DNA from: Vibrio taketomensis
GTDB lineage: Bacteria > Pseudomonadota > Gammaproteobacteria > Enterobacterales > Vibrionaceae
DNA length: 64,000 nucleotides
Assembly: GCF_009938165.1 (NCBI RefSeq)
Contig: NZ_AP019649.1
Coordinates: forward strand, 2,170,001 to 2,234,000
Direction of reading: 5' to 3'
Positions 56,799 to 60,958 of this stretch are shown here, piece by piece (position 1 is the first letter of the stretch; each line of letters starts with the position of its first letter). Position numbers and translations under genes: made by a program. The notes under the pieces are model-generated. The model ran no database searches. It was given only the letters and a program-made list of their open reading frames with translations, and was not told where the DNA came from.

Positions 56799-56856
56799 CT
56801 CGTTCTGCAACAAAGGCACCATTGGGTGCCTTTGTTTAATGGTGACCAAGCATGAG

Positions 56857-57405
56857 TTAGCTTAAGTATGTCTCAACGATGGTATCACCCGCAAAACTTT
56901 TCACTTTAAGCATACTATCTTCTAGCACACCATAGCTGGCAGCAAATTCATTACGTGGAAAGGTGACAGAACCTGGGTTAAAGATGAACTGCTCACCATC
57001 TTTTTCTGCCAACGGAATGTGCGTATGACCATGCACTATCACATCACCCTCTCGCAGCGCAGGGCGTTTAGCACTGTTATATAGGTGGCCATGAGTTAGA
57101 AACATGCGCTGCCCACTTGGCAGCAAAACCCATGCATAATCGCTCATCATCGGAAAGCTCAACAGCATCTGATCGACTTCACTGTCGCAATTCCCACGTA
57201 CCGCGATGATTCGATCGGCATATTGATTGAGTAATTCAGCTACCGCAGGAGGATTATAGCCTTGTGGAATTGGATTACGCGGCCCGTGGTTAAGAACATC
57301 ACCCAACAATACCAAGGTTTCCATGCCTGATTGTTCAAATTCAGCCAATACACGCTCTGTTGCTGGTAAGCTACCATGCAGATCAGAGGCAAAAAATAAT
57401 TTCAC
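56857..57405 (-). CDS. yfcE: Metallophosphoesterase YfcE
   Basis: A 182-residue calcineurin-fold phosphodiesterase. Motifs: FFASDLHGSLPATERVL, LLGDVLNHG, VRGNCDSEVDQ, LTHGHLYN and VHGHTHIP. E. coli YfcE cleaves bis-pNPP with Mn2+. I chose the GTG at 57405 (reading MKLFFASDLHG) as it has GGAG eight bases before; a GTG three codons earlier is possible. yfcE-like and yfcH occur near each other here as in some enterics. Confidence 0.94.
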   Translation of the reverse strand: MKLFFASDLHGSLPATERVLAEFEQSGMETLVLLGDVLNHGPRNPIPQGYNPPAVAELLNQYADRIIAVRGNCDSEVDQMLLSFPMMSDYAWVLLPSGQRMFLTHGHLYNSAKRPALREGDVIVHGHTHIPLAEKDGEQFIFNPGSVTFPRNEFAASYGVLEDSMLKVKSFAGDTIVETYLS

Positions 57406-57449
57406 TACAATCACTCCTCAGTTTAAGTGAGGACATTTTACTGAATCAG

Positions 57450-57860
57450 CTAAGCAACGTCATCCGGAGCCATGCCATTAAGCACAATATTATTGTAGCT
57501 CACCATACCTATTACTTGGCCATCTTCAATCACTGGTGCACGGCTAATACCAAAACGCTCAAATAGACGAGCGCAATATTTCACGTCCATGCGAGGATCA
57601 ACCGATAATGCAGGTTTGGTCATCACCTCATAAATATTGGTGCGTTCAGGGGAGCGATCTTTGGCTAACACTTTTTTGGCGATATCATTCATCAGTACAA
57701 TGCCATATTCATCATCGACATGGCGCTTATTCACCACCAGCGCCTTAACCCCTTGCTGACGAGCAATGCGAATACCCTCATCAACCGTACTGAGCCCATC
57801 GATCATCACATAAGTTGGCGCCATGACATCTCTCACTCGCACAATATTTTGGTTACTCAT
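57450..57860 (-). CDS. CBS-pair domain protein
   Basis: A 136-residue protein made of two CBS motifs (about 5-65: VMAPTYVMIDGLSTVDEGIR; 75-132: VMTKPALSVDPRMD, GISRAPVIEDGQVIGMVSYN). CBS pairs bind adenine nucleotides such as AMP, ATP or SAM. It overlaps the end of the P-II-like gene by four bases, so the two are translated together. This is the last gene of the DUF1538 cassette; it presumably senses energy state for the membrane proteins, an inference. Confidence 0.9.
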   Translation of the reverse strand: MSNQNIVRVRDVMAPTYVMIDGLSTVDEGIRIARQQGVKALVVNKRHVDDEYGIVLMNDIAKKVLAKDRSPERTNIYEVMTKPALSVDPRMDVKYCARLFERFGISRAPVIEDGQVIGMVSYNNIVLNGMAPDDVA

Positions 57861-58207
57861 ATTTCATCCCCCACCACTTTGGTTAACTTCTCAACTTGAT
57901 GTGCAACTCCAACGGCATCTTCAATATCAATTTGGATCGCAATGCCCTGCCCTGACTCTTCATCAAACCCACCAACCTTACTGATCGTTTCTAATATCTG
58001 TCGGGCAAGATGTTCCTCTACGACGAACAACAACACATCTCTTTGCACCTCGAGAGTGAGTCCAAAAAAGGTACGTTTTTGATTGAGCCCTTCACCTCGA
58101 GCGTTATTAATGACTGTTGCACCTGTCGCTCCCGCGCTGCGTGCAGCATCCAATACCTGTTCCGTTTTATTGTCTTCAACAAAAGCTAACAGTAATTTAA
58201 AGCGCAT
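57857..58207 (-). CDS. P-II-like signal protein
   Basis: A 116-residue protein with a P-II fold: [35 protein letters not shown], and the C-terminal GQGIAIQIDIEDAVGV that resembles the ATP-binding end of GlnB. Tyr51 and the longer T-loop of GlnB are missing: the segment NNARGEGLNQKRTFFG is short. So it is not uridylylated like GlnB/GlnK, and is likely a specialised P-II-like regulator. It overlaps the DUF1538 gene upstream by 11 bases and the CBS gene downstream by 4. Confidence 0.85.
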   Translation of the reverse strand: MRFKLLLAFVEDNKTEQVLDAARSAGATGATVINNARGEGLNQKRTFFGLTLEVQRDVLLFVVEEHLARQILETISKVGGFDEESGQGIAIQIDIEDAVGVAHQVEKLTKVVGDEI

Positions 58208-58985
58208 TTTGTTTATCCTCTAAAGTTGATTCTTTATTTAACCAACGAGTAATTTGGGCATACCCCATCACCGAAATCATGGGAAATAAACTGGCAAAAG
58301 CAATCAAACCAAAACCATCGATCATTGGATTGCGGCCGGGAACCGTTGAGGCCAAACCCAACCCGAGCGCAGCCACCAATGGGACGGTGACTGTTGATGT
58401 TGTGACGCCACCTGAGTCGTAAGCAAGGGGGATAATTAATTTAGGGGCGTACATAGTTTGGATCACCACCACCACATAGCCGAAGATAATGTAGTAATGG
58501 ATAGGGTCGCCCACGACAATGCGATAGCTACCTAAAGAGATACCTACCGCCACGCCCAGAGCTACAGCAATGCGTAACCCGTTAACACTGATAGAGCCAC
58601 CAGAGACTTGATTGGCTTTAATCGCCACAGCAATCAAGGATGGCTCTGCGATCGTCGTACTGAAACCAATGCAAAAGGCGAACAGGTAAACCCAATAGTA
58701 ATCCGCCCAGCCTAAAGCCGACTCCGCGCTAATACGAACTTGCTGTAAAAAATCAGGGGCAGTCAATTGTTCGGCCATGGTCTCCCCTAGCGGGAACAAC
58801 GCCATTTCGAGCCCCATAAGAAATAAGGAAAGCCCTAAGATGACGTAACCAAAACCTAAAATTACCTTGGATAAATTAGCAACAGGGCGTTTGAGCACCG
58901 CAAATTGAAAACCAAAGATAATCGTCACGATAGGTACGACATCACCAATAGTGTTAATCAAGGTATCGATAAACTGCATCATCAT
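58197..58985 (-). CDS. DUF1538 membrane protein, second copy
   Basis: A 262-residue polytopic membrane protein. Signature DUF1538 parts: [15 protein letters not shown], the [20 protein letters not shown] loop and [18 protein letters not shown]. It is paralogous to the gene just upstream: about half its conserved positions match, so the two may form a hetero-oligomer. Transport function is suggested by re-entrant-like Gly/Ser/Thr motifs but not proven; no substrate is known. Overlaps the upstream gene's stop by four bases (ATGA). Confidence 0.85.
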
Positions 58986-59722
58986 GTTGTCACCATCATG
59001 CCGTAAACCATGACAAACATCATTGGCAGTAGTGAGGCAAAAGCAATCAAGCCAAAACCATCGATCATTGGGTTTCTGCCCTTAATCGAAGACGCCAATC
59101 CAACCCCAAGTGCGGTCACCAAGGGAACGGTGATCGTCGAGGTGGTTACCCCACCTGAGTCATAAGCAACACCGATAATGCTCTCTGGTGCAAAAGCGGT
59201 TAAGATCACGACTCCTACATAGCCACCAATAATCATATATTGAATCGGCCAGCCTTTAAGTATTCTCAAGACACCTAAGACGATAGCGAAGCCAACCGAT
59301 AAGGCCACCGTGATGCGCAAACCATTAGCATAGTTTTCTTGGCTTTCTTCACTTAAAGCAATCATGCCCCCTTCCGCGGCAACTTCCGAAGCTTCATCAG
59401 CAATTGCGGTTAACGCGGGCTCTGCGATCGTGGTACCAAAGCCTAAACAAAATGCGAAGATCATTAACCACATTACACTGCCTTTACGTGCAAAAGCTTG
59501 TGCCATGGTTTCACCAATTGGAAATAGCCCCATTTCTAAACCAAAAATAAAGAAAGTCAGCCCCATCACGACTAGCAACAAACCCATGGCAATTGACATT
59601 AGATTAGGCAACGGCTCCTGCAGCACAACCAGCTGAAAAAATGCAATCACTACGATGATTGGCATCAAGTCGCGAAAACTGCCTAGCATCGCGCGCAATA
59701 GTGCTGAAAAAGCGTTGGACAT
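58982..59722 (-). CDS. DUF1538 membrane protein, first copy
   Basis: A 246-residue polytopic membrane protein starting [20 protein letters not shown] with GGAG seven bases upstream (the frame continues to 59818 without a better start). The same motifs as the second copy: [35 protein letters not shown] and [18 protein letters not shown]. It heads a four-gene cassette DUF1538-DUF1538-P-II-CBS. A Ser/Glu-rich cytoplasmic loop ([13 protein letters not shown]) is unique to this copy. Confidence 0.85.
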
Positions 59723-59926
59723 AAATACACTCCATTCAATCAATGACTTGGATATGTTGCTATGGCTATCTTGCCAAAGCACCGACTGATAAGATGTGAT
59801 TCGTCCAACAACCAGCACTAAAGATGTAACAAAGTGTGATTTTTGTGAGCCTCTACAAAACCATAAAGGGTTGAATAAAGTACCTAGTACTCTACGTCCT
59901 GATTCGAACGCTATAATTACTCAATA

Positions 59927-60028
59927 TACTCAAGTAACTTCGAGATGTAGGATTCAAAGTAAAGGCTCGCTCGAGAAGGGCAAATTCATGAAGCTCGCGG
60001 AACTTAGCACCCAGTGGTTACTTGAGTA
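59927..60028. repeat. Small inverted-repeat element
   Basis: A 102-bp segment bounded by the perfect 12-base inverted repeats TACTCAAGTAAC (59927-59938) and GTTACTTGAGTA (60017-60028). No gene inside. A half copy occurs at 40437. It resembles the short dispersed palindromic repeats of Vibrio chromosomes. It lies directly before yfcH. Confidence 0.7.
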
Positions 60029-60043
60029 CATAAGGAGATTGGA

Positions 60044-60958
60044 ATGAAAATACTGCTAACTGGCGGCACAGGATTTATTGGCCGAGAGCTGCTCAAACTA
60101 CTCACGACTCATGAGGTAGTACTGCTAACTCGAGCTCCAGAGCGCGCTCAACAGTTATTGACCCATGCTGATTTAGGCAATATCACTTATATCGCCGATC
60201 TTGACGCATTCCATGATCTCAATGATTTTGACGCTGTTATCAATCTCGCTGGTGAACCGATTGCCGATAAGCGCTGGAGTAAGGGACAAAAGCAACAGAT
60301 ATGCGATAGTCGTTGGAAATTAACGGAACAACTGGTGGAGCTAATTCATGCCAGTACCAACCCTCCCGCGATTTTTATTAGTGGCTCAGCGGTTGGCTAT
60401 TATGGCGATCAGCAGTCACACCCGTTTGATGAGAGCTTACATGTTCACTCAGAGACCTTTACTCATCGAGTTTGTGAGCGCTGGGAGACCATTGCTAACC
60501 GTGCTCGATCAGAAAATACTCGTGTGTGCATATTGCGAACTGGGGTTGTGCTGGGATGCGATGGCGGTGCACTAGCCAAAATGTTATTACCTTACAAGCT
60601 TGGAGTAGGCGGCCCCATTGGCCGTGGTAATCAATACATGCCTTGGATACATAAGCTCGACATGGTTCGTGCCATTGTTTATTTGCTCGAAACTGAACAT
60701 GCTCAAGGAGAATTTAATCTTTGCGCCCCACACCCTGTCACCAACAAACACTTTAGCCGCACGCTCGCTAGAACGCTCAAACGCCCACACATTTTGTTTA
60801 CACCTAAATGGTCGATGAAATTATTGATGGGAGAAAGTTCAGTACTGCTATTTGATAGTATTCGTGCCAAACCGAAAAAGCTGACGGAGTTAGGTTTTCG
60901 CTTTAGCTATTCGCGCTTGGAACCCGCGCTGAAAAATCTATTACAACACCAAGCTTAA
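60044..60958 (+). CDS. yfcH: TIGR01777/YfcH-family sugar-nucleotide epimerase-like protein
   Basis: A 304-residue SDR-fold protein. The N-terminal Rossmann motif reads KILLTGGTGFIGRELLKLLT; INLAGEPIADKRWS and SGSAVGYYG are the typical second parts, with YYG replacing the usual YxxxK. The C-terminal DUF1731 domain (NLCAPHPVTNKHFSRTLART) is present. The true substrate of the family is unclear. Shine-Dalgarno AAGGAG eight bases upstream lies next to the end of the repeat element. Length near E. coli YfcH (297). Confidence 0.92.
   Translation: MKILLTGGTGFIGRELLKLLTTHEVVLLTRAPERAQQLLTHADLGNITYIADLDAFHDLNDFDAVINLAGEPIADKRWSKGQKQQICDSRWKLTEQLVELIHASTNPPAIFISGSAVGYYGDQQSHPFDESLHVHSETFTHRVCERWETIANRARSENTRVCILRTGVVLGCDGGALAKMLLPYKLGVGGPIGRGNQYMPWIHKLDMVRAIVYLLETEHAQGEFNLCAPHPVTNKHFSRTLARTLKRPHILFTPKWSMKLLMGESSVLLFDSIRAKPKKLTELGFRFSYSRLEPALKNLLQHQA

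Follow-up and report, generated by a model that had tools for sequence, protein, structure and literature searches.

A P-II-like gene accompanies the UmpAB-type DUF1538 carrier genes of Vibrio taketomensis and other bacteria

The question raised by this locus is what a pair of DUF1538 proteins does, and why genes for a P-II-like protein and a CBS-pair protein follow it. The cluster lies on the minus strand at positions 57450-59722 of the window, by which we mean the whole 64-kb stretch of V. taketomensis DNA that was analysed (contig NZ_AP019649.1, assembly GCF_009938165.1). The answer towards which we lean is a single operon of four genes that encodes a monovalent-cation/proton antiporter together with its regulators, for which we infer docking of the P-II-like protein, a throttling effect and a role of the CBS protein; as a whole, the cluster probably encodes an ion exchanger that regulates itself.

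A four-gene cluster around an UmpAB-type carrier

The four open reading frames overlap end to start, as the first-pass annotation had described, and their coordinates and common strand were confirmed. The umpA-like gene (58982..59722, 246 aa) shares 4 bases (58982..58985) with the umpB-like gene (58197..58985, 262 aa), whose product has a polar C-terminal tail and which overlaps by 11 bases (58197..58207) the gene for the P-II-like protein of the Ump-associated subfamily (57857..58207, 116 aa); the latter shares 4 bases (57857..57860) with the gene for a stand-alone CBS-pair protein (57450..57860, 136 aa). Both membrane subunits match PF07556 (umpA-like, 2.4e-70; umpB-like, 9.9e-68; bit scores of 228 and 236.6 among the two vs. 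a gathering score of 22.6). Their suspected paralogy was borne out by 50% identity over 251 columns, and the loops GGVTTST (59135..59155 in UmpA, adjoining the conserved Asp188, and 58392..58412 in UmpB) and [14 protein letters not shown] are present in both, these loops being conserved across the DUF1538 family and not particular to this pair. The assignment of the other two genes to a P-II fold and a CBS pair also stood, with PF00543 (9.9e-11, 42.3 bits vs. a gathering score of 25) and PF00571 (8.1e-16, 58.5 bits vs. 24, one stretch reported) above their gathering scores.

A gene for a yfcE-type phosphodiesterase (56857-57402) begins on the same strand 47 bases past the CBS stop codon. Homologues occur in 22 other fetched stretches, the named ones being from Vibrio or Photobacterium, and the gene was rejected as a fifth cluster member on account of this lineage-local distribution. 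Control by a riboswitch or another RNA was likewise rejected, on the results of an Rfam search of positions 56800-60200, which gave no match at E<=1, and of a search of 14 related loci at gathering scores, in which the sole match was glmS at the edge of L201.

The first-pass annotation knew of no characterised substrate for these proteins, a statement overtaken by the Na+(Li+,K+)/H+ antiport of UmpAB published in 2017 (PMC5484666). UmpAB of Halomonas zhaodongensis is a DUF1538 pair described as a heterodimeric antiporter: co-expression of umpA and umpB made E. coli KNabc tolerant of salt and alkali, everted vesicles showed dequenching dependent on Na+, Li+ or K+ with an exchange optimum at pH 9.0, seven transmembrane segments were predicted per subunit, and UmpA and UmpB co-immunoprecipitated (PMC5484666). 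This last result, obtained for a homologue, agrees with the earlier guess that the DUF1538 pair is a hetero-oligomer. In both systems the genes are adjacent, overlapping paralogues, UmpA-like then UmpB-like, and UmpB is the longer protein with a hydrophilic tail. They differ in that a P-II and CBS partner is described only here, and in that the window pair scores below the NCBIfam equivalog cut-offs.

The best NCBIfam matches give the names UmpA and UmpB in the right gene order, with 387.8 bits for NF041627 (UmpA, cut-off 490) and 355.6 bits for NF041628 (UmpB, cut-off 500), and we therefore term the pair UmpAB-type rather than an UmpAB equivalog, a type to which an adjacent homologous pair with overlapping genes, as found here, belongs. 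The two cut-offs are strict, as that of NF041627 was passed by none of the 398 genomes searched in the phylum, although the published UmpA and UmpB clades include two vibrios, Vibrio ezurae and V. xiamenensis (PMC5484666); the UmpA of V. xiamenensis (L061) and that of the window share 79% identity. With the window proteins shut out by both cut-offs, and all 398 genomes by that for UmpA, the DUF1538 name will probably persist for genes of this kind.

An AlphaFold2 (AF2) model of UmpA is helical (pLDDT 94.4). A search of PDB folds with the carrier gave no convincing match, which speaks for neither novelty nor kinship, and comparison of the DUF1538 sequence with solved chains gave no match worth noting. 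In an alignment that takes in divergent Bacillota and fused forms, Glu101, contained in the TIAEP motif of UmpA (59417..59431), is Glu in 310/310 DUF1538 domains with a letter at that position (311 aligned), and Asp188 is kept in 309/310 such domains. From this conservation, the two acids would be natural candidates for the ion and proton sites. Two further papers point in the direction of the published antiport: a machine-learning paper of 2026 has DUF1538 among its key genes for growth pH beside MnhB, MrpF and K+ transporters (PMC13255231), and UmpAB has been cited as a possible salinity adaptation in cable bacteria (PMC12093952).

Genomic linkage of P-II and CBS genes to DUF1538

PF07556 matched in 126 of the 398 genomes of the window's phylum. 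From 60 of these 126 genomes, we sampled 62 stretches, chosen for genus spread among the matches listed and leaving out weak PF07556 matches (E above about 1e-50). The positions of the P-II, CBS and DUF1538 domains were determined with profiles that had been built from the window proteins. A P-II gene was counted as next when its domain scored >15 bits on the same strand <=400 bases from the last DUF1538 domain, and a CBS gene when its domain scored >90 bits within 1100 bases. By this measure, a P-II gene comes next after DUF1538 on the same strand in 60/65 sampled units, and both P-II and CBS follow in 39/65. One further unit (L130) has its P-II gene just upstream, and the other four of the 65 (L145, L147, L151, and L160) have no P-II gene in >4.2 kb downstream. 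In the named set of 80 loci, which are the best 80 of at least 591 confirmed matches and hence close relatives, P-II is found in 77/80 units and P-II together with CBS in 76/80; two of the three misses (L079 and L104) stop within two bases at a contig edge, and 714 bases remain in the third (L101).

The linkage extends beyond these two sets. A tblastn search of plasmids returned nine records, all with <60% identity, and in all eight that were opened a P-II gene lies next to DUF1538 (seven by script, L195 by annotation), including L199, in which the first of the DUF1538 genes is short (67 bits). The six Bacillota plasmid loci (L195, L197, L198, L200, L201, and L202, with L197 and L202 from one species) all have an ORF with two DUF1538 domains and, after it, an ORF of ~220 aa with two P-II domains, the first of which (10-42 bits) has diverged further than the second (67-76 bits). 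P-II is also linked to DUF1538 in a Thermodesulfobacteriota MAG (L111), while the P-II neighbours in L192-L194, stretches fetched through P-II matches, are not independent evidence. A fusion of DUF1538 with P-II was not found in any stretch read, the two candidates L054 and L109 being separate neighbours by their domain coordinates. In one genome (G138, L130:1496-5714), two ump units of different type lie on one strand, in the order fused carrier, P-II, CBS, P-II, and then the pair.

The linkage counts show that the arrangement is not due to chance and correspond to the conserved linkage of transporter and P-II genes in SbtA-SbtB and AmtB-GlnK. Among the open-licence papers and passages listed, none connects DUF1538 with P-II. 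The proposed genome survey of PF07556 with P-II and CBS genes upheld strong linkage for P-II and partial linkage for CBS: CBS was not found after 26/65 sampled units (25/63 among those with >=900 bp downstream), nor in any of the eight opened plasmid loci, so that it is not a core component. The CBS gene is an optional member of the cluster.

A tree of 69 P-II domains (111 columns, with many forks unresolved) separates the Ump-associated proteins from the two canonical P-IIs of the genome by a branch with 100/100 support and 4.8 changes per column. The P-IIs beside fused carriers of ~520 aa form one clade and those beside fused carriers of ~620 aa another (100/100 each). Three genomes (L130, L144, and L162) have a pair-type unit and a unit of a second type, the second carrier of L162 being truncated where the stretch ends and typed by its score, and each P-II falls in the clade of its adjoining carrier type. 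As P-II type matches carrier type within one genome, co-inheritance must go beyond the relatedness of species alone. The P-IIs beside pairs fall into more than one clade (5 changes vs. a shuffled mean of 22.4), and the five Bacillota domains in the tree need 2 changes.

The P-II subfamily is not confined to the carrier. Among 20 stretches chosen for having no listed DUF1538 match nearby, 17 (from 16 genomes) have an Ump-type P-II gene with no DUF1538 pair beside it, two of them (L177 and L179) being cut at a contig edge on the side on which a DUF1538 gene would be expected, and an exclusive partnership of P-II and DUF1538 was therefore rejected. In 13 of the 17 (L175, L176, L178, L180-L188, and L191; e.g. 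L191:2072-4128), the P-II gene follows that of a TIGR04211-like SH3-and-anchor protein on the same strand, with argB divergent; the family names at this second locus were tested for L191, L188, and L176. Eight P-IIs in the tree carry the corresponding orphan label, for seven of which the SH3 neighbour was confirmed, the eighth (L177) being cut at the contig start. Two further orphans (L189:3121-6805 and L190:3316-6638) have mutS upstream on the same strand. One orphan (L191) has a DUF1538 pair on its contig at a distance of about 3.5 kb, and five orphan-bearing genomes (G022, G117, G129, G145, and G181) have no DUF1538 match. ArgB, the N-acetylglutamate kinase, is a classic P-II target, and the SH3/P-II/argB locus may thus be a second system.

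Loops and ligands of the two putative regulators

The AF2 model of the P-II-like protein (pLDDT 85.4, with a block over the T-loop at 55) has the PII fold, and Foldseek matches it to PII, SbtB and CPII structures from E 4e-6, including those of the SbtA-SbtB complex 7egk and the AmtB-GlnK complex 2ns1. The genome encodes its two canonical P-IIs elsewhere, at 25 and 23% identity to the P-II-like protein. In canonical P-IIs, the tyrosine of the T-loop is the site of uridylylation, and the B-loop lysine and a pair of C-terminal arginines contact nucleotide phosphates. The P-II-like protein shares with GlnB and GlnK the fold and the GxG loop bases, in contrast to these residues, which it lacks. 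We compared 168 rows, orphan copies included, with the canonical P-IIs of this genome: the tyrosine column is Gly in 161/168 rows, including that of the window, the lysine column is Lys in none, and the column of the first arginine is Gly in 162/168. The window protein has I, G, and A at the lysine and arginine-pair positions, and its B-loop reads GQG (57944..57952) at the place where the canonical P-IIs of the genome read GDGK. The first-pass annotation had given the P-II-like and CBS proteins as nucleotide sensors, among the things seen; for the P-II-like protein, the absence of the canonical B-loop lysine from all 168 rows withdraws this from the observations.

The T-loop is 5 residues shorter than in the canonical P-IIs and contains FFGL (58058..58069), part of a loop motif of the subfamily, T-F-F-G-L, whose residues are kept in 144, 148, 141, 161, and 144 of the 168 rows, respectively. 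The conservation of a hydrophobic T-loop, together with the decay of the phosphate site, may point to a constant protein partner and to a ligand other than the canonical ones. It is possible, if doubtful, that this ligand is an ion, a proton (as pH) or bicarbonate instead of a nucleotide, with any nucleotide input coming from the CBS protein. The loss of the canonical phosphate-site residues would fit such a sensor, as would the presence among the fold matches of a CPII bound to ADP, AMP and bicarbonate. However, SbtB, itself a non-canonical P-II, has been solved with AMP, ADP and ATP according to structure titles among the same fold matches, and the loop glycines are retained (G38 in 168, G40 in 163, and G88 in 165 of 168 rows), so that a cleft for adenine nucleotides may remain.

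For the CBS protein, the nearest solved CBS relative is the cyanobacterial CBS-CP12 (5nmu), matched by the CBS family profile at 7.4e-36 over profile positions 2-121 of 122. CBS-CP12 is reported to bind AMP (PMC9406205). The protein studied here differs in lacking the CP12 tail and in its linkage to a transporter and a P-II gene; by analogy, it may act as an auxiliary sensor of energy state, with AMP or ATP as the most likely ligand.

A proposed regulated antiporter and its alternatives

In the scheme that we prefer, UmpA and UmpB would form a heterodimeric carrier exchanging Na+ (Li+, K+) for H+, as shown for the homologue, probably through the near-invariant Glu101 and Asp188. The P-II-like protein would act as the dedicated regulator of this carrier, docking via its T-F-F-G-L T-loop, and, once docked, may throttle cation/proton exchange; in lineages possessing the CBS gene, the CBS protein could tune the P-II step. 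Precedents for P-II-gated transporters are GlnK-AmtB and SbtB-SbtA (PMC10710835), which likewise combine a transporter with a partner of the P-II fold, whereas their transporters are trimers (PMC10710835) and the cluster described here has a short T-F-F-G-L T-loop and an extra CBS gene. As described for the cloned 4.2-kb Halomonas fragment, its one truncated and three intact ORFs include none presented as P-II or CBS, and 'PII', 'P-II' and 'CBS' have no occurrence in the text of that paper (PMC5484666). Because the fragment has none described, P-II and CBS are not needed for carrier activity, which fits a modulator role; E. coli itself possesses canonical P-IIs. Points against this scheme are the NCBIfam scores below cut-off, the missing P-II residues, the orphan P-IIs, the 4/65 units with no P-II and the scatter of pair-associated P-IIs over more than one clade.

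The P-II-gated transporters treated in a review move nitrogen or carbon nutrients (PMC10710835), which would favour another physiological substrate for the DUF1538 pair, such as bicarbonate or an organic ion, carried in a cation- or proton-coupled process that P-II gates as in AmtB and SbtA, the antiport in vesicles then being a side activity. The acceptance of Na+, Li+ and K+ alike by UmpAB (PMC5484666) would suit this explanation, and the fold matches give no pointer to a DUF1538 substrate. We nevertheless consider it unlikely, given that cation/proton exchange is the only activity measured for DUF1538 in the literature found and that the window's yfcE, TauE and yfcH homologues recur only in Vibrionaceae-like stretches and one genome of the same order. 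It is also conceivable, but quite improbable, that the P-II and CBS proteins report the state of the cell to other targets (enzymes, transcription) and are merely co-expressed with the antiporter. The homes of the P-II subfamily beside SH3 and argB and beside mutS would agree with this, as would the activity of UmpAB in E. coli with neither P-II nor CBS cloned (PMC5484666). On the other side stand the tracking of carrier subtype by P-II subtype, including the three genomes with two types, and the doubling of P-II in step with DUF1538 in Bacillota.

Returning to the regulated antiporter, its broadest form is one that we regard as an even call: DUF1538/UmpAB would be the first family of cation/proton antiporters to be gated by a P-II subfamily of its own, in an old pairing across Pseudomonadota and Bacillota. 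In this subfamily, a T-F-F-G-L docking loop and another ligand would have replaced the canonical ATP/2-oxoglutarate site and the uridylylation loop, the carrier would be pseudo-dimeric rather than a trimer, with P-II and DUF1538 domains matched one to one in Bacillota, and CBS would provide a second energy-state input in many Pseudomonadota. Such a P-II-gated heterodimer would break the trimer rule, unless heterodimers gather in threes. Antiport by a DUF1538 pair is already known from UmpAB and the regulator side is what is new, in a class of proteins, the Na+/K+-H+ antiporters, that determine cytoplasmic pH and salt tolerance.
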